Assembly: GCF_900095215.1 (NCBI RefSeq)
Contig: NZ_LT606949.1
Coordinates: forward strand, 488,284-552,283
From: Polynucleobacter necessarius
GTDB taxonomy: Bacteria > Pseudomonadota > Gammaproteobacteria > Burkholderiales > Burkholderiaceae
Length of the DNA: 64,000 nucleotides
Reading direction: 5' to 3'
Shown here: one piece after another, positions 13,339-53,461 of the stretch
Position numbering within the stretch: position 1 is the first letter of the stretch
Layout of the letters: each line of letters starts with the position of its first letter
Program-made: the position numbers and the translations under genes
The notes under the pieces: generated by a model
What the model was told of the DNA's origin: nothing
Databases searched by the model: none
Seen by the model: the letters and a program-made list of their open reading frames with translations, nothing else

Positions 13339-13842
13339 ATGGATGGTGTCTTCGAGCATTTTTTTAGCTGGTTTGGAATGCCTTCAGTGGGCTTGCCTGC
13401 AGTCTTTGTTAGCGCGTTTATTTCCGCGACCTTAATTCCGGCTGGTTCAGAGCCAATTCTGTTTGGTTATGTCACTCTAAATCCCCATTTATTTTGGGTC
13501 GCAATAGCCGTTGCCACAATCGGTAATACATTCGGCGGTATGTTGAATTGGTGGCTTGGAGTGTTGGCGCGCAATAGTTTTAAATCCATGGATGAGCCAA
13601 GAGACAGTCGTTTAAAGCGCTGGCTGGGAGATTGGGGTCCCAAGTTGTTGCTGTTTTCCTGGCTGCCAGGATTTGGCGATCCCTTATGTTTGGCTGCTGG
13701 ATGGTTGAAACTTCCCTGGCAGCCATGCCTTATTTACATGTTTATAGGTAAATTATTGCGTTTTGTTACGCTCACCTCGCTTCTGGGCTTAGTCCCCGAT
13801 AGTTTTTGGCATCAACTGGGACACTGGTTGCACATCATCTAA
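13339..13842 (+). CDS. YqaA-family (DedA-like) inner membrane protein
   Basis: A 167-residue membrane protein with about four hydrophobic segments and the VTxxNxxGGMxNWWLG motif and WLPGFGDP loop characteristic of the YqaA subgroup of the SNARE-associated/DedA superfamily. A ribosome binding site (aggaggt) lies 7-13 bases before the ATG. The 3' end overlaps the last codon of livF, which is on the other strand, by four bases. DedA-like proteins have been linked to lipid scrambling and membrane homeostasis; the precise role of YqaA is not known to me. No lesion is seen. Confidence 0.8.
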   Translation: MDGVFEHFFSWFGMPSVGLPAVFVSAFISATLIPAGSEPILFGYVTLNPHLFWVAIAVATIGNTFGGMLNWWLGVLARNSFKSMDEPRDSRLKRWLGDWGPKLLLFSWLPGFGDPLCLAAGWLKLPWQPCLIYMFIGKLLRFVTLTSLLGLVPDSFWHQLGHWLHII

Positions 13843-14541
13843 ACCGCGCAATACTTTTGCTGAATCTCATCATTATTCAAGAGGTTCTGAGCGGTGTCAT
13901 GAAACACAATCTCACCTTGATCCAGAATATAGGCTCTGTCGGAGATTTTCAAAGCCTGCTGTACGTTTTGCTCGACCAAAAGAATCGTGAGGCCTTGCTG
14001 TTTTAATTTGGCAAACAACTCAAACATTTCATCCACTAAGACTGGCATGATGCCTTCTGAGGGCTCATCCAGCAGAATGACCTTAGGCTTGCCAATCATG
14101 GCTCTAGCAATCGCTAGCATTTGCTGCTCCCTGCCTGACAGAGAGGTGCCATCTTGATGAAGGCGTTCTTTCAGCCTGGGAAAAATTTCGGCAATTTCAT
14201 CAACTAGTGCACTCATACCGCCTGAGTTCTTCTTGGCGATCACGCCAAGTTCTAGGTTTTCCTTAACGGTTAGCCCTGGGACAATCCGGCGATCTTCTGG
14301 TACATAAGCTAGTTCCAAATGAAAGCGTTCATGAGCAGGCAAATCCAAAAACGAGATGCCATCAATTGCGGCTTTACCTTGACGCTTGGATAGTAGACCC
14401 ATTAATGAGCGTAGGGTGGTTTTTGCCTGCGCCATTGCGACCCATCAAGGTGACAATTTCGCCTTTATTGACTTGAAGCGATACTCCTTGCAATACATGA
14501 CTGCGGTCATACCAAGCGTTTAAATTGTCTACACGCAACAT
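13839..14541 (-). pseudogene. livF: Branched-chain amino acid-type ABC ATPase LivF, frameshifted in Walker A
   Basis: Start at 14541 (MLRVDNLNAWYDRSHVLQG). The frame breaks inside the P-loop: the run of five A near 14425 has one base too many, so GRNGAGK is followed by out-of-frame codons. The remaining ~195 residues continue in the next frame with LSGREQQMLAIARAM, LLDEPSEG and LLVEQN, normal for LivF. Last gene of the livKHMGF operon as read on the minus strand. All five liv genes here carry separate lesions. Confidence 0.9.
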
Positions 14542-14555
14542 AGTTTGCTTGCCGT

Positions 14556-15310
14556 TTAACCTTGACCAAGGTACACGCGACGTACCTCGGCATTATTTTG
14601 AATTTCTTCTGGTGTACCTTCTGCTAAAAATTCACCATGGTGCAAAACGATGATGCGCTTGCAAAGACCCATAATGAGCTTCATTTTGTGCTCGACCAAA
14701 ATGACTGCCCGTTCATTTGCTAAAGTTCGTATGAGCTCCATCATGACTAAGTCTCTTCTGGAGACATTCCGGCTGTAGGCTCATCCAGTAAAAGCAGGCT
14801 AGGATTACAGGCTAACGCCATTGCAATTTCGAGAGCGCGCTGCTGTCCGTGGGTCAAGTCGCCTGTCTTTTTGTTGCGCAAGTGCTCAAGATTCACTCGA
14901 TGAAGCAGCTCATCGGCAATCTCAATAGGCTTAGGATAACTTTGCGCATTGCGCAGAAAGTTATGGCGGGTGGTTTCCATTTGAGCGGCAACACGAACAT
15001 TCTCATGAACGCTTAATTGCTTAAAGACGTTGGTAATCCGAAAGCTTTTGGAAATTCCGATGGGAGCAAACGCATGTTGCTGCATGCCAGTAATGTCTTT
15101 ACCATTAAATAGTATTTGTCCGCTGGATGGGGGAAAGGCACCACTTAAGACATTGAAGAAGGTGCTCTTATCAGCGCCATTGGGTCCGATAATTGCGGTT
15201 AACGTTCCAGGCATAAAGCTAGTAGATACATTTTGCAGAGCCTTGAACTTACCAAAGCTCTTACTGACGTTACGCGCTTCAAGAATGGGGGTTGTAGTTG
15301 CGCTACTCAT
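14556..15310 (-). pseudogene. livG: Branched-chain amino acid-type ABC ATPase LivG, frameshifted
   Basis: LivG-type ATPase of ~250 residues. The first frame ends at 14747 just after Walker B (LLLLDEPTAGMSPEET); the last 62 residues, with ILVEHKMKLIM, follow in another frame, so one small indel near 14750 is inferred. Walker A reads GPNGADKST: the invariant Gly before Lys is Asp, a second disabling change. The LTHGQQRALEIAMAL signature is still good. It overlaps the end of livM by one base. Confidence 0.9.
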
Positions 15311-16272
15311 TATTTTGAATCCTGATTAATTTGTAGATTGCTCAGAATAGTTCCCCAGATTCCCTTGTGGAAGAACAGCACAAAGAACATGAAAACCAAG
15401 CCAACGACGGCCATCCAGTGTTTGGTAAAGGTAGTTATGACATCTTCTAAATAGAGCATGACCGCTGCGCCAATGAAAGGGCCAAAGAAGGTGCCCATGC
15501 CGCCCAGAATACTCATCATGACCGCTTGTCATGCTTGCAAGTAGTGCAGAGAGTCGATTGGAACGATGGAGAGGTGCAGGGCGCGTAATGAACCAGCTAA
15601 GCCGCAAATGGCTTCTGCAAAAACAACTACCAATAGTTTGTTGGTGCGAGCCACATTAAATCCACAAGCTGCCGCACGCTTTTCATTTTCGCGAATCGCC
15701 TCCATTACTGCGCCTAAAGGAGAGTGTAGGATGCGTGAGATTAGCCAGATCGCAATCACTACGAAGAAGAGAATGACGTAGTACTTCACTAGGGGATTTA
15801 AAAAATCAATTGGAATACCTAGGATGGTGAATTCACCCACTCTCACGCCGCGCAAACCATTCTCACCGCCTGTAAGGCTTTCCGCTTTATAGAAGATGTA
15901 ATACACAATTTGACCAAGAGCCAATGTCACCATTGAGAAATAGATCCCGCGAGTGCGAATGGACAAGTAACCAATAATAAGGCCGCCAATGGCTGCACCT
16001 ACGATACCCGTGAGAATGGCGATTCCCCAAGGTATGCCGTAATGAACGATGGCAATACCGGTGAGGTAGCTGCCAATACCTAAAAAGGCTGCATGACCAA
16101 AGGAGAGGAGTCCCATATAGCCAAATAACGAGTTAAAGCCCATAGCGAATAAACCAAAGATCAAAATATTGATCGCCAGAGCTTCGTACGGCACGATGAA
16201 TGGAAAGATTGCTAAAAATAGCGTGCTAGCTAGTACGCGATGACGTGCACTGAGTTGAAATAATGAGTCCAT
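15310..16272 (-). pseudogene. livM: Branched-chain amino acid-type ABC permease LivM, premature stop
   Basis: Membrane permease of ~320 residues with many hydrophobic helices and the conserved cytoplasmic loop AIRENEKRAAACGFN. TGA at 15529-15531, in the segment that should run HYLQA-x-QAVMMSILGGMG, cuts it about 70 residues early; the rest of the frame is open to 15310 and ends with normal C-terminal sequence. Only the one stop was seen. It lies 14 bases after livH. Confidence 0.88.
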
Positions 16273-16286
16273 AGATATACGGAGTC

Positions 16287-17172
16287 TTAGCCCATCGCTC
16301 CTGCTTTACCAAATAAACCTTGTGGGCGAATTAATAACGCTACGGCCATCAATACAAAGATAGATAACTCTGCCAAGTCGGGGAAGAAGAGTGAGGTCAT
16401 GCTGTAGACCACGCCTACTAGTAAGCCGGCAATAACAACTCCAACAGGTGAGCCCATGCCGCCAACCACAGTCACCAAAAATGATTCAGCCAAAATAGGA
16501 ATACCCATTTCTGGATTTACGGATCTCGTTGGTGAAGCAAGTATTCCTGATAGGCCGGCAATTGCGCAGCCTAGGCCGAAGACCAGTAGCCAAACCTTAG
16601 CAATATCAATACCCAAGACCTTCACGATTTCTTGATCGGCTGCACCCGCTTTAATCATTAGGCCATAACGGGGTTTTTTGAATAAAGAACCACACGCCTA
16701 AGATAATTACAGCGGTAGCGGCTATTAGGAATAAGCGGTATTTCGGGAAGTATCCAATACCGACATTCACCGTTCCAGTACGGCCTTCCGGAGTCGCTGA
16801 AGGCAATCCTTCAATACCAAAGGTAATGCGCATGACCTCAATCAATACATAGGAGAGGCCAAAGGTGAGTAGTAGCGGGTAATCCAGTCCGAGACCATAT
16901 AAAGGCCGTACTAACAAGAGCTCGGTTAAAAGGCCGATTGCTCCCGCAAACAATGGAGTTAGCACTAGGCTAAACCAAGAACTTCCAGTAATGCCCAAGA
17001 AGTAAACACCTAAAAAAGCGCCCACCATAAAAAATGCGCCATGGGTAAAGTTCACCACATTGAGCATACAAAAAATCAGACATAAGCCCATGGCGAGAAG
17101 TGCGTAAATGCTACCTAAGGCGATGCCCGTAAGCAGCTGCATGCAAAGAAGTTCAAATGTAATACTGGTCAT
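16287..17172 (-). pseudogene. livH: Branched-chain amino acid-type ABC permease LivH, frameshifted
   Basis: Permease of ~295 residues. The first frame ends at 16651; an extra C in a CCCC run near 16672 explains the shift, since removing it restores FFIQKTRYGLMIKAGAADQE and joins the two halves. The C-terminal half keeps the LivH core (LSGILASPTRSVNPEMG, VVGGMGSPVG). First permease gene after the substrate-binding protein gene. Confidence 0.9.
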
Positions 17173-17259
17173 AAATATACTCAGAAAATAACTCCCCTAA
17201 ACCTAATAAGGGAGGGGGTGGATCGGGGTGAATTTATCATCCACTCTGAAATTTTTGGA

Positions 17260-17960
17260 TTAAGCTTTGTGGCCTAGTTCTGCGCAAGAGCGCATGTTTT
17301 TCTCGGTTGTGGGCTCAATCGTTAACATATTGAAGACGTCATACTTGTCTTTCATATTTTTCGATTTCGACTCTACGATGATCACGGTTTGGACTGCTTG
17401 GTGGTCACACTTACGGTAGTGCTCGGGACCCTTGTACCAGTCGTATTGCGCGGGATAGCATAGCGTGACACAGCACCAGCAGTCATAGTTGGATTAAGCG
17501 CTTCGTGGAATGTATAGACGCTCCAGTCTTTCGCGTCGTTAATCGCATCAGACTGGCTAATGGAGTTGAAGAGAACCTTACGCTCTTTACATACCGCGTT
17601 GATTGAGAGTTGTGTCGCTGCGGAAAGCGAGCCCACAACAAAGTTCACTTTGTCTTTCTCAATCAATTCCAATGTACGAGTTGCCGCTTCGCCTGGATTT
17701 AACTTGTCGTCGCGCACTAACAATTCCGCTTTGCGTTCGTTAAAACCACAAGCATCATTCAATTCTTTAATAGCCAACTCCGCAGCATTTACCTGGTCCT
17801 GGGCTTCGGCGGAGAATGGGCCGGTTAACGGTGTCGGAAAGTCAATCTTGATCGTGTCAGCTTGAGCATGCGCAACGTTTAACCATAGTGGAGTGCTTGC
17901 TGCGGCAGCTCCACCAATCAACATCTTGCGTCTCGTTTGATTCGTTACTTTTTGTTTCAT
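17260..17960 (-). pseudogene. Liv-type substrate-binding protein with large internal deletion
   Basis: Starts at 17960 with a Tat-like signal (QTRRKMLIGGAAAAS) and a normal N-terminal periplasmic lobe to about AVSRYAIPR near 17455. The sequence then jumps to the C-terminal end of the family (YDWYKGPEHYRKCDHQ, continuing to ELGHKA and TAA at 17260) in a different frame. A typical LivK-type receptor is ~400 residues; about 150 in the middle are gone. The deletion removes the hinge and most of the second lobe, so ligand binding is lost. It probably fed the adjacent LivHMGF proteins; the ligand, likely an aromatic or amide compound rather than an amino acid, is unknown. Confidence 0.85.
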
Positions 17961-18012
17961 GGTTGTCTCCTCCCTATAAAACTTTGTTAAATAAGAATGC
18001 TTTTTATTTTTT

Positions 18013-19274
18013 TTAAATCTTAACTGAATGCGCCTTTTCATGTGCGTATTCAGGTACTGCTTTCCCTTGAGCTAATAGATCGCTAATATCAATTGCGGTT
18101 TCCACCATCACAGTATCGACATTTCTTTTAAGCTTCTCGTGCTCTCTATTGCCCTTGCTGCCCTGAGCTTGCATATAGCGCCCCAAATACTGTGCTCTAG
18201 CAACCACTTGCTGACCAAGCTTGAGGCGTTCCTCGCTATAAGTATGTAAAGCTTCTGGTGTGGCGCCAAGTGCTGCAATATGCTTTGCAATCACCATCGC
18301 TTCGTCACCCGCTTTTGTGACGCCCATGCCAACATGAGGTCTACCAACAAAGGCAGCGTCGCCCATTCAATGCGATTCGCCCAAAAACAATTTGTTCGGC
18401 TCTAACGTCATAAATTACTTGCAAGAATGGCGCCGCAGTTTTCTCCAGTATTTTCGCGTATTGGGGCGCCAATATCTCTTGCGCTACTTTTCGCATGTGA
18501 GCAATGTGTTTCCAGGAAACCTTGAGTGGGGGAATGCCGGTAGGGTAGTAATGACCATCGTCGTCAGTCAAAAGGCTGACCAGGTCCTCATGTTTCGAAG
18601 CGGGTCGATACCAAACAAAGTTGTAGCGACGCTTCACGGGGCGAGTGTCATTGCCTTAGCCTGCCACTGGGTAGCCCAGCATTTGTTCTCCGTTAGGTAG
18701 GCAAAAACCAAAGCGATTAAATAGCGTCTTCAGTGTGTAAGTGGATAAACAAGCTTCATCGCACACGCCACGCTATATAGCCGGCATATTCAGGTTGAAT
18801 TTGTGGGGCTACTTGGGCTCTTACTGCAGAACGTATGCCGTCAGAGGCAATCAAGATCTCGGCATCATATTGGCTGCCATCCTCACATAGCACTTGTACG
18901 CTATTTGGATCTTGAGTAACTGTTTTGACTGTTTTGCCTTGAAGATAGCGTGCGCCTGGAAAGCTTTCCTTCAGCATGTGATACAGACGACTCCAAGATG
19001 TAAGCACTTGAAGTAACTCCCTTTCCCCCAGACTTTGGCCGTCAGCACCTAAAGTCATACGCTTGGTAACGGCTACACCCAGGGTTTCATCGACAGTAAC
19101 GCCGGCGGCACGGAGTGCTTCAGCTAAGGCGTCATGCGTCACAATACCCGCGCCACGGCCATCCAAGAATCCAGTTGTCTTCTCAAGCAGGGTGACGTCA
19201 TGTCCTTGTCACAGCAAAATATTCGCCGCAAACAAGCCGCCAAGAGAGCCGCCAATAGCCAGGATTTTTGCCAT
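18013..19274 (-). pseudogene. FAD-dependent monooxygenase (hydroxylase), multiply broken
   Basis: Start at 19274 with the FAD motif IGGSLGGLFAANILL. Lesions on the path: TGA at 19209-19211 (codon 22), a frameshift near 18765, TAA at 18656-18658, and a frameshift near 18370 before the GDAAFVGRPHVGMGVTKAGDEA segment that binds FAD ribitol. The overall ~410-residue layout matches class A aromatic hydroxylases (PHBH fold, UbiH-like). With the neighbouring VOC protein, CO-dehydrogenase-like genes and liv transporter it points to a lost pathway for an aromatic or heterocyclic substrate (inference). It is among the most damaged genes here. Confidence 0.85.
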
Positions 19275-19283
19275 CAATCGCTC

Positions 19284-19741
19284 CTATGCTGCCTTGGCGT
19301 CCAGAGCCGTTTTTTCTTCAGCCGTGTAGTTTAGTTCAATAACGACACCATTGGGATCATCTAGAAATATTTTGTGAAGCTTTAAAACTGGTACTGTGCG
19401 TTCGCGATAAGGAATCTTGAGCTCTTTTAAAAGCGCAATTTTTTCCTCAAGCCCATTTGCGAAGAAGGCGATGTGATCTACCGCGCCGGATCCATGTAGA
19501 GAGCTAGGAGCACGATCTCCAAAATATTTCTTAAGTCCGCTAGGATCATTTTATCGATGGCAATTAAGTGCAGCACTGCGTTTGCCAAGCTGCTTTCATC
19601 ACCGTTATAGAGCCAGACCCCTGGAAATGGAAATTCTGGCCTTGGACCAACAGTTAAGCCTAATACCTTGCTAAAAAATTCAGTGGTTTTTTCGATTTCC
19701 AGACTGCGAATGGAACAGTGATTTAGGCTTAAGTTAGACAT
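19284..19741 (-). pseudogene. VOC-family (glyoxalase/dioxygenase-like) protein, frameshifted
   Basis: Start at 19741 (MSNLSLNHCSIRSLEIEKTTEFF), a ~150-residue vicinal-oxygen-chelate protein with two beta-alpha-beta-beta-beta modules. The frame breaks near 19553, where a run of A is one short of what keeps KNDPSGLKKYFG in frame. The second half continues with GAVDHIAFFANG and DPNGVVIELNY, which carries the family's metal-ligand Glu, ending at TAG 19284. Likely substrate: the product of the neighbouring monooxygenase (inference). Confidence 0.85.
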
Positions 19742-19755
19742 GATGATCCTTTGAA

Positions 19756-20448
19756 TTAAGCGAATAATGATTTTGCGGAATGGAGGTAAGACTGCACTCG
19801 ATCACGAATGATTTCTTGTTCTGTATTGTGGCTTTCAGCGCCATATATGGCTTGGCCATAGATCCAACGGCGTATGCCGATGTAAAAGATGCCGCCATGT
19901 AAGCCCATTAAAAATTCAAGCTCGCGTTGCGTTGGTTTGGAGGTATCCGCTCTGCCGCAATACTTGCGTGTTTAGCGAATAAGTCTCGGCAATAAACGCG
20001 TACGCAAAAGCTCAAAGAAGCGATCGCTAATTGAGTGATCACTTAAGCCAGAGAAAATCAGGATGCGAACAAAGTCATAAGCCAATACTGTGTTGGAATA
20101 GTCCAGGTAAAATGCATTGAATTTTTCTTCGGGTGTCAGTGATTCGTCATCCAGCAACTCTTCCCATTCTGGTTTCCAGCGAGATTCAAAAACTTCTTTG
20201 TAGACTTCTTGAATCAAAGCATCTTTAGTGTGGAAGTAGTGATAGAGCAGGGTATGGGTGATTTCCAGCTCTTTAGATAAATTTCTGAGTTGGTCATCAA
20301 TGCCATTTCTGGCAAAGAATTGAATGGCGCTATCGAGGATTTGACGCTTACGTTCGGCTGTGCCCATTCGCTTTCTGGTTGGCATTGATCCGCCTGCTGA
20401 AATTTCAGCATTATTTTCGCTGGAAACGTGATCTTTAGTAAAACGCAT
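19756..20448 (-). pseudogene. TetR-family regulator, premature TAA
   Basis: Helix-turn-helix regulator of ~200-230 residues with the TetR N-terminal segment RKRQILDSAIQFFARNG and HTLLYHYFHTKDALIQEV. Translation could start at 20448 or at the internal ATG near 20388. TAA at 19972-19974 (probably once GAA) cuts the last ~70 residues of the ligand-binding domain; the frame is otherwise open to 19756. Divergent from the coxG-like gene, with a candidate operator between them. It may have controlled both arms of this catabolic island. Confidence 0.85.
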
Positions 20449-20477
20449 GGGTTCTCAGAGTTGATCCGAATTTGGAC

Positions 20478-20509
20478 TTATTGACCAAAAGTTAAAAATT
20501 GGTAGATAA
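20478..20509. promoter_or_regulatory. Candidate TetR operator (inverted repeat)
   Basis: Two 11-base arms, TTATTGACCAA and TTGGTAGATAA, with a 10-base A-rich spacer; they pair as an inverted repeat at 9 of 11 positions. The site lies between the divergent TetR and coxG-like genes. Binding is inferred from position and symmetry only. Confidence 0.45.
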
Positions 20510-20541
20510 GACTCTATTCGTACAAACCCCAAGGAGATCGT

Positions 20542-21018
20542 ATGGAACTGAATGGCGAACAATTGATATCCGCTTCAATCCCTGATATTTGGAGGGGTGT
20601 GAACGATATTGACGTTTTAGCCAGGTCTATTCCAGGTTGCGAGGAGATCAGCAGAATCTCACCGGAGGAGGTTCATGCCAAGGTGATGTTCAAGATTGGG
20701 CCTTTTAGAGCCCGTTTTGCCGGGAAATTGCTCCTGAGTGACATCATTCCAGATCAGTCTTGCTCGATGGCCTTTGAGGGTTCTGGTGGTGCGGCCGGGT
20801 TTGCTAAAGGTAAGTCCCGGGTTGATCTGAAGCAAGCTGAAGTGGGCGCATTAGTTTCATGCACAACCGAGGCGTCCATTGGCGGTAAGTGAGCGCAAAT
20901 TGGTGGACGTTTGATCAGTGCGTCAGCAAAAAAGATCGCGGATGATTTTTTTCAAAAGTTCGCAAAAGAATTAGGCGGGGAGACAGTGGCGTTGGAATCA
21001 GACGTCAGTAGTAACTAA
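20542..21018 (+). pseudogene. CoxG-like (CO dehydrogenase subunit G, SRPBCC) protein, premature stop
   Basis: A SRPBCC/START-fold protein of the CoxG family, ~160 residues, involved in recruiting or assembling CO-dehydrogenase-type molybdoenzymes. TGA at 20890-20892 interrupts the highly conserved GGK-x-AQ-x-GxRLI segment where Leu is usual. After it the same frame stays open to TAA at 21016. Beyond that to 21120 the DNA is A-rich with Lys codons and further stops, which looks like a decayed Lys-rich tail. An aaggag ribosome site precedes the ATG. Confidence 0.8.
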
Positions 21019-21120
21019 AAAAGCAGCATCAAAACTAAAAAAGTAGTTGCAGTAAAAAAATAAAGTAGTGAAAAATAAAAAGCTACAAAAGCTTATTACC
21101 TTGGTTGTGGAGGAGACGTA

Positions 21121-21889
21121 ATGCAAGCCGCAGCATTTGAGTATGTAAAGCCGAAGGCATTGCAAGAGGCTTTATCTTTGCTTGAAGAAGCTGGCGAAGA
21201 TGCCCGCTTAATCGCGGGTGGACAAACATTATTAGCAACACTCAATATGCGTTTGTCTGAACCTAGTGTGTTGATTGATATCTCTGATGTCGCAGAGCTA
21301 AAAGGTATCTCGATTGTTGGCGATAGTTTGCGTATTGGCGCTTTGGTTACGCATACTGAAATTGAAGATTCGGAATTGGTAGCAAAACACGCGCCATTGT
21401 TAAAGGCCGCTGCGCCGCATATTGCACATCGCGCGATTCGCAATCTCGGGACATGGGGCGGCTCTTTAGCCTATGACTATCCTGCCGCCGAATGGCCAGC
21501 CTGCAGGCTGGCATTGCGGGCTACGATGATTATTCATGGTCCAACAGGTGAGCGCCGCATCTCCGAAAAAGATTTTTTATTTTCACGAGCTAGCCAGACG
21601 TCATGGTGATTATGCCGTTTCTGGGCTTGCAGCGGTTGCGCAAACACAAGGTGATGTTTTAACTAATTGCGCTTTCACATTCTTCTCGGTTGGCGCCACA
21701 CCAGTGATGGCTATAAAAGCACAAGATTTGGTCGACGGCCAAAAGTTAAATAACGAATTGATTGCTCAAGCTGTTGCTGCTGCGCGTAATGAAATTGAAG
21801 CTATCGCGGATATTACTAGTGGCGCGGAAGCCAAGCAACACCTCATTGGTGTTTTGCTTGAGTGCGGCCTTAAACACATGATTGCTTAA
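21121..21889 (+). pseudogene. FAD-binding subunit of xanthine/CO-dehydrogenase-type enzyme, broken
   Basis: The medium (FAD) subunit, normally ~285 residues. The N-terminal FAD motifs AGGQTLLATLNMRL and RNLGTWGGSLAYDYPAAEWPA are clear. Near 21585 the sequence jumps from EKDFLF to YFHELARRHGDYAVSG in another frame; comparison with the family suggests ~25-30 residues are deleted at the join. The C-terminal domain then runs to TAA at 21887. It transfers electrons from the Fe-S subunit to an acceptor in the intact enzyme. Confidence 0.85.
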
Positions 21890-21932
21890 TGTTCAGCATA
21901 AAAATTAGCCGCGGAAGAATTTGGAGATCAGA

Positions 21933-22442
21933 ATGACTTTGAAGAAGAAAATTGCAATGACCGTGAATGGTCAACTCGTCAACGCCGAAGTTGAGCCACG
22001 CAGACATCTGGTCGATTTTTTGCGTGAAGACCTTCATCTAAAAGGCCCTCATTTGGGTTGCGAACAGGGCGCTTGCGGTGGTTGCACAGTCGAGGTGGAT
22101 GGGCAAATTATTCGCGGCTGTCTCTTTTTGGCCGTTCAGGCCGATGGTAGCGTGGTTGAGACGGTCTAGGGGCTTACAAAAAGCGGTGTTTTAACCGACC
22201 TGCAAGAATCTTTTATGCGGCATAACGCAATGCAATGCGGCTTCTGTTCTTCGGGCATGTTGTTGGCTGCGGCGGAATTAATAGAGAAGCAGCCGAAAGC
22301 AACGCGCGAACAAGTGCGCGAATGGATTTCTGGAAACTACTGCCGTTGCACTGGTTCCCACTCTATTGTGGATGCCATTCTCGATGTATTGGATGCTCGC
22401 GCTAAGGGTCAAAAAATTAAACCTGTCCTTGCTAACGCTTAA
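21933..22442 (+). pseudogene. [2Fe-2S] subunit of xanthine/CO-dehydrogenase-type enzyme, premature TAG
   Basis: Small subunit of ~168 residues with both cluster motifs: CEQGACGGCTV plus the distal C of RGC in the first, and CGFCSSGML with NYCRCTGSHSIV in the second. The start is the ATG at 21933. TAG at 22167-22169 falls between the domains (VETV-stop-GLTKSG), probably once GAG. No other lesion, so this gene was a single-mutation loss. Confidence 0.9.
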
Positions 22443-22462
22443 GGTATTAAGGAACACGCATT

Positions 22463-24836
22463 ATGAATAAGTCAAGTGATTTGAAGGAAATGGTTCTGGA
22501 TCCCGTAACAAACGATCAGCGCTATATTGGCCATAGCGAACCAAGACATGGCGCACGTCGCCTGCTCGAGGGTCAAGGAACTTATATTGATGACATTCAG
22601 TTGCCACGTATGGGGCATGTTGTGTATTGGTGCTCACCTGTAGATGAAGATCGGAAACATGCATACAGAGCACGCAAGCAAGATGCCAGGGGTATTGGCG
22701 GTGGTAGATGGCGTGCAAATGGCAAAGATTTGTAAACCTTGGGTGGCTACGTTAGGTCACTTGGCCGGTATGAAGTCTGCGCCTCAATATGCTTTAGCAA
22801 TTGATCGTGCTTGCTGGCAGGGTGAGCCGGTAGTTGCGGTTGTTGCGGAAACTAGGGCGCAAACAGAAGACGCGCTTCAGCATATTGAGGTTGAATTGGA
22901 GGAGTTGCCTGCGGTGGTTTCCATGGAGACAGCGCTCGATGCAGAAACACCATTCATTCACCCAGAGCTTGGTGACAATTTATGTTTTACGCGAAGCTTA
23001 GATGTTGGTAATATAGATGAAGTATTTGCGACGGCTGATGTAGTGGCGGAGGCCGTATTTGGGTTCGGTCGTCATACTGGTGTCACGCTGGAACCTCGTT
23101 GTCAGATTGCCGATTACAACCCAGGTGATCGTCGCCTAACCGTGTATCACTCACAGCAAGCGCCCCACATGATGCAGGATTTATATTGTCGTCAGTTCGG
23201 ATTATCCGAGTCTGATGTGCATGTCATCTGTAAAGATGTTGGCGGTTCTTTTGGCAATTAAGGTTCACGCATATCCAGATGATTGCGCGACTGTGGGTCT
23301 GGCAATGATGTTGCAGCGCCCAGTGAAATTTGCTGCTGATCGCTTAGAGTCATTTACGAGCGATATCCATGCACGCGAGCATCGTATTAAGGGCCGTATT
23401 TCTGCCAATACAGTAGGGGATATCTTGGCATTTGAGATTGATGAAGTAACTGCTATTGGTCCTTATTCTATGTTTTCTCGAACAAGCGCAATTGCAGGAA
23501 ATCAGGTGGTGAACTTGGTTGGTGGCCCTTATAAGCATCAAAACTATCGCGCTCATCTAAACGTCGTCTTCCAAAATAAAACCTCAACCTGTCAGTATCG
23601 CGGGGTTGGTCACCCAATTGCTTGCGCGGTAACCGAAGGTTTGGTTGATTTAGATTCCAAGAAATTGCAGATGGATCCGCTGGAGTTTCGTAGGCGAAAC
23701 GTCATTCCTGACGACGCTTATCCATGCTCCGGAATTTCTGGTATCAAGCTAGCTGTTCTTTCCAATGAGCAATGCTTGCAGGCAATTGAAAAGATGATGG
23801 ACTACCCAGCTTTGCGTAAAGAGCAGATGGAATTACGCAAGAAGGGTATTTATCGCGGCATTGGATTTGCAACATTGATTGAGTTAACAAATCCAAGTCC
23901 TGCATTCTATGGCGTGGGTGGCGCGCGAATTGCTTCTCAGGATGGCGCCACTGTTCGCATGGATCCTAGCTGGGTCATTTCAGTATTAAGTGGCGTTGGC
24001 GAACAATGCCAAGGAACGGAAGGCATCTACACCCAAATTGCCGCTGATGCAGTAGGTGTTTCAATCGATCAAGTACGCATTGTCACTGGTGATACAGATG
24101 TCACTCCATACGGCGGAGGTACTTTGGCATCACGCGGTGCTGGCGTAGGGGGGAAGCGGTTCTTTTAGCTTCTCAAGCCTTGCAAGAAAATATTCTGAAG
24201 CTTGCTGGAGCGATTTTGAATCGCCCAGATGCTGAATTGATCGCGCGTCGTGGCCATGTTTTAGATAAGGCGACTGGTGAGCAGTTATTGCCATTTAGAG
24301 AAGTAGGCAGGGTTTGGTATTTCCGCACGGATACTTTGCCTGCAGGTTTTTCCGCTGACTTAATGGTGACGCGTCATTACACGCAAAAAGATGATCCATT
24401 TATCTTGACGAATGGAGTTCAAGCTTCTTACGTTGAGGTGGATCCAGAAACCGGATTCGTCAAATTATTAAAACATTGGGCGGTTGAGGATTGTGGACGA
24501 GTGATCAATCCCACGTTGGTAAATGAGCAAGTTCGCGGCGCAAGCGTGCAGGGTATTGGCGGTGTCTTATTTGAAGAGTGTCTCTACGATGAGAGTGGCT
24601 TGCTGCGTAACGGCAGTATGGCCGATTATTTGGTACCGATGGCCAATGAGATGCCTGATATCGAAGTAGCTCACGTAGAGACTCCTACACAGTCATCTAA
24701 ATTAGGCGCCAAGGGCGCGGGCGCACCAGGCGCGGTTCAAAATGCGATCAATGATGCTTTGGCGCCATTTGATGCCACTGTTTTTGATCAGCCAATCACC
24801 TGCGAAAAGATTTTGCGCGCCCTCAAAAAGATTTAA
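22463..24836 (+). pseudogene. Molybdopterin subunit of xanthine/CO-dehydrogenase-type enzyme, three frameshifts
   Basis: Large catalytic subunit, ~790 residues. Recognisable: YIGHSEPRHGARRLLEGQGTY at the start, GGSFG and CQYRGVGHPIA in the middle, GVGEQCQGTEG and LGAKGAGAPGAVQNAINDAL near the end. The active-site loop reads QYRGVG, not the AYRCSFR of true form I CO dehydrogenase, so it is an uncharacterised xanthine-dehydrogenase-family hydroxylase. Lesions: a frameshift near 22640 with apparent small loss, one extra A near 23256 (GGSFG-x-IKVHAY), and one missing G in a G6 run near 24152. With the FAD and Fe-S genes and coxG it formed one operon. Confidence 0.9.
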
Positions 24837-24980
24837 TAAAGACCAACTAGACCTCATTTTTAGTGGATTTAAGCTGCCATGGATGATGCTCCCCCGGGGC
24901 GGTTCACCACATCCTGTAACATCAAGTTTTGGGGTAAATCGTGATGAAAACCATCTGGTTAATTTGATACGGTAAAAGAA

Positions 24981-49371: not shown

Positions 49372-50445
49372 TTAAACAATCACCCAGGAAACAACCAGTA
49401 GTTTTTCTTGCCGCTTGCTCATTTTGCCAATGACGCGGGCGCCCAAGAACTGGTGTTGATTGAATATTTCCAATACCTCTTTCACATTCTCAGGGCTGCA
49501 AGAGACTAGCAATCCGCCGCTAGTCTGTGGATCAGTTAATAAAGCGCGTTGCGCTGATGTGAAATTTTCTGGAATGCCGACTTCATCTCCATAGCTCAGC
49601 CAGTTTCTATCTGATGCGCCTGTAATGACACCATCGTTTGCTAGCGCTTCTACGTTGGAGAGTAGCGGCACCTGACTCCAGTCGATATGCGCTGTACAGT
49701 TGGAGCTGCGGGCCAATTCTAACGTGTGTCCAGCCAATCCAAAGCCGGTAACATCGGTTAGGGCATGCACGCCAGGTAAGTTGGCTAGATCCGGTCCCGC
49801 AGAGTTGAGCTTAGTGGTGTTGGCGATCATTTCTCGATATCCGTCCGGACTCAACAGATCTTTTTTTAAAGCAGCCGACAGAATGCCCACACCTAGCGGT
49901 TTACCGAGAATGAGTACGTCGGCTGGCTGAGCGCTCGCATTACTCTTGACGCGCTTTGGATCAACGATTCCAATCGCTACCAAACCATAGATGGGCTCCA
50001 CTGAATCAATCGTATGTCCGCCTGCGATGGGGATGCCAGCGCTGCGACAAGCTTCAGCCCCACCTTCTAGAATTCGAGCGATCGTTTTATTGGATAGCAC
50101 TTTAATTGGCATTCCAACCAAAGCAAGAGCGAACAAAGGGGTGCCGCCCATCGCATAGATATCGCTGATCGCATTGGTGGCGGCAATTTTGCCAAAGTCA
50201 AAGGGGTCATCCACAATCGGCATGAAAAAATCGGTCGTTGCTACGACCGCTTGAGATTCATTAATCTGGTAAGCAGCGGCATCGTCAGACGTCTCGATAC
50301 CAATGATTAATTCTTTTGGAAATGGGAGTTGCGGAACGTTCTTGAGGATTGCAGAGAGAACGCTGGGGGCAATCTTGCAACCACAGCCTCCGCCATGCGA
50401 CAGGGAGGTGAGACGTGGTTCGGTGGAGATATTGACTGTGTTCAT
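49372..50445 (-). CDS. selD: Selenide, water dikinase (selenophosphate synthase), Cys form
   Basis: A complete 357-residue SelD making selenophosphate from selenide and ATP. N-terminal catalytic segment GGGCGCKIAP with Cys rather than Sec, the ATP/Mg segments ETSDDAAAYQI, TTDFFMPIVDDPFDFG, AGGHTIDSVEPIYG and TGFGLAGHTLELA, and the C-terminal DPQTSGGLL. No stops or shifts. Formate dehydrogenase here is of the Cys type, so selenophosphate is more likely used for tRNA 2-selenouridine (SelU) if that gene exists elsewhere (inference). Converges with the hydroxyisobutyrate dehydrogenase pseudogene. Confidence 0.93.
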   Translation of the reverse strand: MNTVNISTEPRLTSLSHGGGCGCKIAPSVLSAILKNVPQLPFPKELIIGIETSDDAAAYQINESQAVVATTDFFMPIVDDPFDFGKIAATNAISDIYAMGGTPLFALALVGMPIKVLSNKTIARILEGGAEACRSAGIPIAGGHTIDSVEPIYGLVAIGIVDPKRVKSNASAQPADVLILGKPLGVGILSAALKKDLLSPDGYREMIANTTKLNSAGPDLANLPGVHALTDVTGFGLAGHTLELARSSNCTAHIDWSQVPLLSNVEALANDGVITGASDRNWLSYGDEVGIPENFTSAQRALLTDPQTSGGLLVSCSPENVKEVLEIFNQHQFLGARVIGKMSKRQEKLLVVSWVIV

Positions 50446-50479: not shown

Positions 50480-51023
50480 TTATTGGCGTAACAGGGTTTC
50501 TATCTTTCCCTTAACTTCATCGCTATTGACATTCTCAATCGCACCAATCCATACTCCTTTGAGCTTGCCACTTTTGCCAACAAGAAAAGTGGTTGGCAAT
50601 CCTCGCGCTTTCCAAGACTTATAGACAGTGCTATTGCGATCGAGCAGCATCTCAATGCTGCGCTAAAAACCATTACCCTTTAGAAACTGTGTGATACGGG
50701 GGTTTCATTTCAGCAAGGTTTACCGCGAGAACGACAAGCCCCTTAGACTTATAACTTTCTTGAAGTTGCGTCAGCTCTTCAAATTCTTCGCGGCAAGGTT
50801 CACACCAGCGCGTCCAAAAATTCACTACAACCACTTTGCCTTTCAGGTTAGCTAGATCCACCGGTTTACCCGAGAGATTATTGAGTTGTAGTGGAGGCGC
50901 TATTTGCGATAGGCCTAGCTGAGCGACAGGACGCCACTCAGCCTTCGCTGAATAACTAGAAAGTGCAAGCAAAGAAAAAGCCAGCGTAAGAATCAGTGCT
51001 CGCGCTGGCTTATATATAAACAT
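50480..51023 (-). pseudogene. TlpA/ResA-like thioredoxin, frameshift and stop
   Basis: Periplasmic thiol-disulfide protein of ~180 residues with signal peptide (residues 1-28) and redox motif FWTRWCEPCREE. One extra C in a C5 run near 50700 shifts the frame (restored: MKPRITQFLKGNGF), and TAG at 50662-50664 follows; the remainder SIEMLLDRNSTVYKSWKARGLPTTF with cis-Pro region continues to TAA at 50480. Likely a cytochrome-c-maturation-type reductase. Confidence 0.85.
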
Positions 51024-51051
51024 ACCAATTAATAGCTTTCTAAAAACTCAA

Positions 51052-52728
51052 TTAGCCAATGCGTCTACTAGTAGTTTTGTATTTGAAGTTATCTGGATCG
51101 AGCGAGTCAAAGCGACCTTCAGTATTTTCCGCCTGGGGATACATCAAAAATGGAATTTCACCTTTCTTGCCAAGCGCTGAACCGGAGAGAGTAAGGTTAT
51201 GATTATAGTTATAGGCCATCCAATTCATCTCCCAATTACCAAAGAGGTAGTCGCGAATAGCGATGACTTTAGGATCAGTGACCGCTAAAACACCGGTCTC
51301 TTCAAGAATCATTTTACGTACGTCGGCTGGATCAACAGGCACCCAGCCAAAGCCTGCGGCATAGAATTCTGCACGACAGTGTTGCGCTTTAGTGATATCG
51401 CCACCTTTGCCCAAGCTCTTATAGCCACGTGCCGAGTTAGCAATGCGGATACCGTAAACGTCGCGCGCAGGTAGCCCAACTGAGCGGGCAAGGGCTACAA
51501 ATACTGCGTTAATGTCTGCGCATTTGCCGCCTAGATTATTGGTCTCCAACATGAGTTTGACATCGCCCTGTCCGCAGCCCAGAGTTTTAGGGTTGCGATG
51601 AGTGTTGCCCGCTACCCAGTGATAGATAGCCTGAGTCTTGTCAATGTCTCTTAGCATTTGATGTTCATCAACACAAACTAAGGACACAGCTACACCGTTG
51701 GATCCTGCTCGACCGGTACGCCCAATGCGGTGCACATAATCTTCCGGGACATTCGGTAGGTCGTAGTTCACTACATGGGGTAGTTGGTCGATATCAATAC
51801 CGCGCGCAGCAATATCAGTCGCAATTAGCGCGGTTAACTTGCCTGCTTTGAAATCAGCCAATGCTTTAGTTCGAGCGGATTGGCTTTTATTGCCATGAAT
51901 GGCCATGCTGGTGATGTCATCTTTCTCCAGCTGCGTCACTAATTTATTGGCGACATGCTTAGTGCGTGTAAAGACAAGTACTTGTTTCCAATCGTGGCTC
52001 TTAATGAGGTGAGCTAGCAAAGGATGCTTCTTAGTTCTATCAACTGGGTGAATCAATTGAGCAATGGCTTCATTAGTGCTATGGCTACGAGCTACCTCAA
52101 TTAACTCTTGGGTATTTAATAAGCCATCAGCTAGTGCTTTGATCTCAGTGGAGAAGGTTGCTGAAAATAATAAGTGTTGACGTTGTTTAGGAAGCGCAGC
52201 CAAGATTTTTTGAATGTCGCGTAAGAATCCCATGTCGAGCATGCGATCCGCTTCGTCGAGAACTAATATTTCAATATCTTTAAGAGGCACACAATTTTGT
52301 GACATCAAATCTAGCAGCCGTCCTGGTATAGCAACCAAGATATCAAGACCACCGGCAATTGCTTTGATTTGGCGGTTTGCGCCAACGCCACCAAAAATCA
52401 CTGTGGACTTCAAGCCAGTGTATTTTCCGTACGTTAGCACAGATTCTTGAACTTGAGCGGCTAACTCTCTTGTTGGAGTGAGAATCAAAACACGTAAAAG
52501 ACGTTTTCCGGAGCTTGCTTTGTTTGAAGGTAGGCGTTGCAGAATTGGCAGCGTAAAGCCAGCAGTTTTTCCGGTGCCAGTTTGTGCTGCCGCCAATAAA
52601 TCTCCGCCCTTCAGAACGGCGGGAATGGATTTTTCTTGAATTGGGGTTGGGCTGGTATAGCCTTCTTCTGCAATAGCGCGAAGAATGGATTCTGATAAAC
52701 CAAGATCTGTGAATAACATAGGGGCCAA
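51052..52728 (-). CDS. Chimeric open frame: RhlE-type DEAD-box helicase fused to transglutaminase-like C terminus
   Basis: A 558-codon uninterrupted frame. Residues 1-~360 are a complete DEAD-box RNA helicase core: [19 protein letters not shown] (Q-motif region), [20 protein letters not shown] as [15 protein letters not shown] as FSATF, and [10 protein letters not shown]. At [14 protein letters not shown] it changes to a transglutaminase-like domain with [15 protein letters not shown] (Cys), [13 protein letters not shown] (His) and VDPAD (Asp). I know no such natural fusion; RhlE normally ends in a basic tail after [14 protein letters not shown] deletion joining two same-strand neighbours is inferred. 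The helicase motifs are intact, so a functional helicase with a foreign tail is possible. Confidence 0.82.
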
Positions 52729-52820: not shown

Positions 52821-53454
52821 CTATTTTAAGTCATCCCCTCCAAAAGTCAGGGATTTGGTGAATGAAGCTGAATTCCAGAGGTTTGGTACCACTGTATTGG
52901 CATAGCCGGAAACAAAAGATTTCTCCGTTCCAGTTTCGGGATCAAAGACTGAGCGATGAATGCGTCCAATATTACCGCCATAGACATGAATGCTGATCGC
53001 AGTCTGATCGCTCAAGCTGTTCTCTACAACATGAATATCATGGGTGTTAGGTGAAACCAGGTCTACGTGTCCTGGCAAGCTGGAACATGCTTCACCGGGC
53101 CTTAAAGCTCTGGTCAGGCTGGCGGCAGTAGGGCGTTCCTGTTTCTTTGCCACGCAACTGTCCAATCATTCCCCAGACTGTGTGATTGTGTAGCGGTGTT
53201 TTTTGTCCGGGACCCAAAACAAAACTTACTACGGAGAATCGATCTAGTGGATCAGCATAAAGGAGGTATTGTTGATAGTACTGCGGGTGTGGTTTGGTAA
53301 ATTCTTCAGGAAGCCAGTCATCCACAGCAATGAGATTTTCGAGTAACTTTTTCCCTTTGGTAAAAATCACCTCCTCGCTTGGTCCTTGCTCAAGCAGGAG
53401 GCTTAGCGCTTTTACAAAAGTAAGCAGCTTCTCATCGGTCATATTGCGCTCCAT
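52821..53454 (-). pseudogene. Cysteine dioxygenase-like cupin enzyme, frameshifted
   Basis: Thiol dioxygenase-type cupin of ~205 residues. First frame from 53454 (alternative ATG at 53442): LLEQGPSEEVIFTKGKKLLENLI and the iron site LGPGQKTPLHNHTVWGMIGQLRG. The break near 53130 moves the second cupin motif (HDIHVVENSLSDQTAISIHVYGGNIG, third His) into another frame that runs to TAA at 52821. Family known for cysteine or 3-mercaptopropionate oxidation. Confidence 0.83.
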
Positions 53455-53461
53455 TATTTTG

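Follow-up and report, generated by a model that had tools for sequence, protein, structure and literature searches.

Gene remnants fused by deletion are a known kind of product in decaying endosymbiont genomes. Obligate ciliate endosymbionts have genomes of 1.7-1.8 Mb, against 2.1-2.5 Mb in their free-living relatives, and contain more pseudogenes (PMC11253213), and P. necessarius in particular is described as having a genome of ~1.6 Mb with many pseudogenes (PMC5018217).

DEAD-box helicases are characterized by a series of conserved motifs (Q, I, Ia, GG, Ib, II, III, IV, QxxR, V and VI; PMC5790279), among which the Thr of motif Ib is one of four positions of this motif that contact RNA in Vasa (PMC7403622). 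The C-terminal extensions of RhlE-like members are reported to be poorly conserved (PMC8190605), and an RNA-binding role has been suggested for their positive charge (PMC10783127). According to the same source, E. coli and P. syringae can do without rhlE, a gene that is listed as cold-induced in P. asymbioticus (+3.5; PMC7522526).

The locus described here lies in a window of 64,000 nucleotides, the whole stretch of DNA that was analyzed, which corresponds to positions 488284-552283 of a Polynucleobacter genome assembled as a single contig of 1,703,354 bases and rated 99.94% complete. Since a size of 1.70 Mb and an abundance of broken genes are in keeping with obligate ciliate endosymbionts, the source organism is probably an endosymbiont itself. 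Within the window, an RhlE-type helicase and part of a transglutaminase-like (TG) protein are read as one protein. Like the deletion-fused remnants of decaying endosymbionts, this fusion lies in a decaying region, unites adjacent genes and has a short repeat at its join; unlike them, it has kept a frame that is open across both parts.

Composition of the fused frame

A sequence-only reading of the window had described an open 558-codon chimera of RhlE and a TG-like domain at 51052..52728. The chimera is real, with the Pfam domains of both parents present and every match above cut-off (DEAD 28-197, Helicase_C 236-342 and Transglut_core 361-467). The frame is open as stated; its strand, which that reading had omitted, is minus, and the plus strand across 51052..52728 is riddled with stops. 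The features of the locus, with the evidence for each, are as follows (window positions).

52866..53457, minus strand: gene 103, upstream neighbor, frameshifted; two frames against gene 103 of G113
51052..52728, minus strand: 558-codon fused open frame, start codon TTG; reading of open frames
51649..52728, minus strand: RhlE-type DEAD-box helicase core, codons 1-360; Pfam DEAD and Helicase_C, NCBIfam RhlE
52327..52329, minus strand: broken motif Ib (IPGR), codon 134 (ATA, Ile); codon read and comparison with homologues
51641..51648, minus strand: deletion junction GACATTGA in the D-I-D-K codons; alignment to relatives
51052..51640, minus strand: C-terminal half of TG (from about residue 175 of 369) and stop codon; Transglut_core
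51520..51522, minus strand: TG catalytic-type Cys403 (GGKCADIN); C214 is invariant in 44 aligned TG proteins
51379..51381, minus strand: TG catalytic-type His450 (KAQHC); H261 is invariant in 44 aligned TG proteins
51331..51333, minus strand: TG catalytic-type Asp466 (PVDPAD); D277 is invariant in 44 aligned TG proteins
50483..51110, minus strand: thioredoxin-like (TlpA-like) gene, downstream, frameshifted; two frames against gene 122 of G113
49372..50445, minus strand: selD, intact neighbor, used as a control; frame and comparison

The best NCBIfam model for the fused protein is RhlE (PRK10590), which matches residues 4-364 with 568.5 bits. Like RhlE (PRK10590; PF00270 and PF00271), the core of the fusion (1-364) aligns end to end with the model, and it is 94% identical to the RhlE of close relatives. 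Unlike RhlE, the fused protein remains below the curated full-length cut-off of the model (743 bits), the match stopping at 364, and it is missing the basic tail and has a broken motif Ib. Ten of the 11 DEAD-box motifs sought are present in the helicase half; the complete set claimed earlier is therefore inexact, the exception being motif Ib, which reads IPGR and not TPGR. The first residue of this motif is Thr in 119 of the 120 relatives listed and Ser in the remaining one, against Ile in the fusion.

The TG half is 91% identical to the TG gene of Polynucleobacter sp. 86C-FISCH (G113) over the C-terminal 54% of that gene. Like the exported TG-like putative cysteine proteases (PF01841), the fusion keeps the core from about residue 176 and, as had been noted, the Cys, His and Asp residues, here Cys403, His450 and Asp466; we presume the catalytic role of Cys403 from the TG family.

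Both parents have lost a terminal part. On the helicase side, the tail that is present in G113 RhlE and absent from the fusion comprises 66 residues, 14 of them K/R and 3 D/E, with a pI of 11.7, and the earlier statement that a basic tail has been replaced is correct. On the TG side, residues 1-175 of 369 are absent, including the twin-arginine leader R5-R6, which is invariant in 44 TG proteins and which we take to be a Tat signal. In an AlphaFold model of an intact relative TG protein (mean pLDDT 85), a beta domain occupies residues 36-118, a helix residues 172-186, and the join falls at about residue 176. Unlike the exported TG-like proteins (PF01841), the fusion thus has neither the leader nor the beta domain and lacks the opening residues of the first core helix (172-186). 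Its Transglut_core match is nearly whole, beginning at profile position 14 where that of intact relatives begins at 12-13. Among solved structures, 3isr, a putative cysteine protease, comes closest to the intact model (E 5.7e-16, TM 0.55 by query length), followed by the periplasmic domain of TgpA.

The TG half is therefore incomplete and would be placed in the wrong compartment; no longer exportable and deprived of its beta domain, it has most likely lost all enzymatic activity. The sequence-only reading had a thiol-protease-fold domain take the place of the RhlE tail; the tail has been replaced, but this wording overstates what replaced it, because the domain is damaged by the loss of the leader, the beta domain and the helix start and appears to change at conserved sites as broken genes do.

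Parent genes in relatives and the deletion junction

In 12 of the 12 relatives whose locus carries both genes, RhlE and TG are separate frames on the same strand (430-438 and 371-389 codons, respectively, stop to stop), with rhlE first and the gene for the exported TG-like protein after it. This is the arrangement that had been predicted for free-living relatives. A TG relative is present in 44 of the 186 genus genomes, the source genome included, and among the matches listed for these 186 genomes only the source genome has a full-length match to the fusion. The RhlE-TG fusion was found in none of the 80 named TG loci and none of the 29 other genus TG loci. Among the best 120 of 7999 protein matches, none covers more than 68% of the fused query, and a helicase domain is absent from all of the best 120 TG-half matches listed; in the literature searched, no description of this RhlE-TG fusion was recognized. 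Homologous fusions in relatives had been named beforehand as the observation that would speak for an ancestral state, and with none found in the loci searched the fusion appears, as far as the search extends, to be derived and not ancestral.

An open frame of ~825 aa over both genes in several relatives at one point suggested an ancestral fusion. It came from the joining of matches, and L022, L024, L030 and L033 each contain two frames with a stop between them, by which this candidate was ruled out. A joint alignment of the fusion with the RhlE and TG sets placed TG N-termini under the helicase and was left out of the results. At 3 of the 29 genus TG loci (L062, L043 and L063, in G060, G069 and G183), the flanks fetched contain no RhlE-like frame, and TG without a nearby RhlE in these genomes points to rhlE loss in genomes of 2.0-2.2 Mb as well.

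The alignment to the 12 relatives shows a missing segment of ~761-808 bases, which supports the proposal that two genes were joined by deletion, and it places the domain switch, earlier put near ~51655, at 51641-51648. Around the join, RhlE has D-I-E-K and TG has D-[I/V]-[D/E]-K, the codon phase is equal in both genes, and both parents carry a GA(T/C)AT(T/C)GA-like sequence. A short direct repeat, with 8-11 of 12 bases in common, is found at both deletion ends in 11 of the 12 relatives, the remaining one (L010) being left out of the count as its TG side is unmatched by the pattern used. From these observations, a single deletion, some 0.76-0.81 kb long, would have joined rhlE to TG in this decaying Polynucleobacter genome, presumably through strand slippage or a similar short-repeat recombination between the two D-[I/V]-[E/D]-K stretches. 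Such an event would have taken out the RhlE basic tail, the spacer, and both the leader and the N-terminal domain of TG. The frame would have stayed open because a deletion between in-phase repeats preserves it automatically, without selection.

A sequencing or assembly artifact would account for the join in quite another way, and it is highly improbable: the genome is one contig at 99.94% completeness, and the window differs from relatives at many sites on both sides of the join. A 12-base imperfect repeat, moreover, is too short to collapse an assembly.

Decay of the neighborhood and constraint on the two halves

Fifty-two neighboring genes were mapped from G113, with the RhlE-TG pair left out, and a gene was considered intact when a single frame covered 90% of the relative's protein and otherwise broken. 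Under this rule 18 of the 52 neighbors are intact and 34 are broken, in agreement with the earlier remark that most neighbors are broken. Five of the 34 are truncated without a counted frameshift or stop, and two broken neighbors (genes 54 and 40) sit at the window edges. The broken neighbors contain 29 frameshifts and 27 stops, that is 56 lesions in 27.9 kb, and the intact ones 2 frameshifts and 3 stops in 13.9 kb. A lesion-free stretch of 1.67 kb has a probability of ~0.03 at the density of the broken neighbors and of ~0.09 when the density is taken from intact and broken genes together. Since the locus was chosen for being open, its intactness is weak evidence, and may reflect either a recent deletion or a lasting constraint on the helicase.

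Both genes flanking the fused frame are frameshifted. A fragment of the downstream one matches AhpC-TSA/Redoxin; the upstream one, gene 103, is presumably a CDO, and the Pfam scan of one of its fragments gave no match. Promoter-like sites are at chance level (3 found, 3.2 expected), and the terminator-like sites (4 found, 1.9 expected, sd 1.4) are not informative. Elsewhere in the window, ~11 kb of sequence (13840-24980) is without an equivalent at the corresponding position of the syntenic G113 stretch. The open frames there are themselves fragmented, and from their translations we take them to resemble pieces of an ABC transporter of the branched-chain amino-acid type and of a xanthine-dehydrogenase-like gene set.

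The same two genes decay in other genomes of the genus. RhlE is split into three frames in G031 (L068) and two frames in G035 (L070) and was not found in G033 (L069), and frameshifts also disrupt TG in G031 and G033. By contrast, G036 and G032, which show decayed genes as well, have kept RhlE intact. The lesions at this locus in G033, G031 and G035 differ from those of the window and look independent. Across the genus, an RhlE match better than 1e-150 is absent in 55 of 186 genomes by best_E count, some of these genomes being incomplete. The source genome itself has two further DEAD-box genes whose open frames are long (483 and 487 codons) and one further TG-domain frame.

Constraint was assessed at sites otherwise invariant among 29 close relatives, with two intact and two broken genes as controls. 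The helicase half departs at 11 of 315 such sites and the TG half at 9 of 140, against 11/298 and 10/435 in the intact controls (pooled 21/733) and 16/293 and 34/755 in the broken ones (pooled 50/1048). For the helicase half, neither comparison shows a difference (P=0.56 against intact, P=0.44 against broken), and the TG half gives P=0.043 against the intact controls, uncorrected for four comparisons, and P=0.41 against the broken ones. At conserved sites, the TG half thus behaves like broken genes, as judged from its substitutions; among them is D511, invariant in 120 of the 120 homologues listed and changed to N in the fusion. A relaxed constraint on the helicase half had been suggested by selD as the control (1/187, against 8/243 in the helicase half). 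This claim was withdrawn: without junction codon 363, one of the eight, the comparison gives P=0.15, and the two additional intact controls (11/298 and 10/435) show that selD is unusually conserved.

Amino-acid and silent changes were also compared branch by branch, after removal of matches below 55% identity and of genes in which fewer than 60 codons were usable. The odds ratio of the window against free-living relatives is 2.03 for the 18 intact genes (bootstrap 1.57-2.74), 2.23 for the 34 broken genes (bootstrap 1.90-2.64), 3.62 for the helicase half and 3.07 for the TG half, a measure that fails to separate the intact from the broken class. On the window branch, the helicase half has 19 amino-acid and 41 silent changes, a ratio lower than those of the pooled intact genes (307:352, P=0.03) and of the pooled broken genes (756:711, P=0.003), and this low ratio counts for constraint, past or present.

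These results bear on a further reading, in which the fusion is a new functional protein and the helicase gains a new activity or binding surface from the TG-like domain. It would draw on the kept Cys, His and Asp and on a Pfam Transglut_core that is nearly whole; set against the lost beta domain and leader, the broken-gene rate of change in the TG half, the D511 to N substitution and the failure to find a second instance in the loci and listed matches searched, such a protein is very unlikely. Equally small is the chance that the chimera is made and selected because a cytosolic TG-fold tail has partly taken over the RNA grip of the tail-less RhlE, a grip weakened by the motif Ib damage and the loss of the basic tail. 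If it were selected, it would to our knowledge have no precedent among DEAD-box helicases, the literature searched having listed none with a C-terminal domain of thiol-protease fold.

Probable fate of the chimera

Taken with the junction, the decay and the two halves, the fused frame is best explained as a chance in-frame deletion fusion in a decaying Polynucleobacter, most likely with little or no selected function, a reading to which we assign a probability of about 0.7. If the protein is made, it would consist of an RhlE core that has no tail and is damaged in motif Ib, followed by a passenger domain.

The main competitor is a retained, working helicase. Selection would in this case still act on the RhlE core, with the TG half carried along as a tolerated passenger. 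The frame is open over 1.67 kb amid many lesions, 10 of 11 motifs are kept, and the constraint on the helicase half is indistinguishable from that of intact genes and accompanied by a low ratio of amino-acid to silent changes. The cold induction of rhlE in P. asymbioticus suggests that the gene matters at times in the genus (PMC7522526), and for another DEAD-box protein it has been argued that changes in motif Ib may modify, not abolish, function (PMC7403622). Nevertheless, the Thr of motif Ib has become Ile and the basic tail is lost, RhlE is broken or gone in three other decaying genomes, two other long-frame DEAD-box genes remain in the source genome, and 55 of the 186 genus genomes (some incomplete) are without an RhlE match better than 1e-150. 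On balance, a working helicase appears rather unlikely, though well ahead of any adaptive role for the new tail. The sequence-only reading had left the choice between a neutral deletion product and a retained helicase with a new tail; the former fits better, and the latter is still compatible with the constraint on the helicase half.

As a chance deletion product, the fusion would be a snapshot of genome decay creating chimeric open frames by accident. Short codon-phased repeats shared by adjacent genes let deletions keep the frame, and an intact chimera alone is thus no evidence of a new protein. If expressed, this chimera would make it possible to test directly whether the basic tail is needed for RhlE to work.
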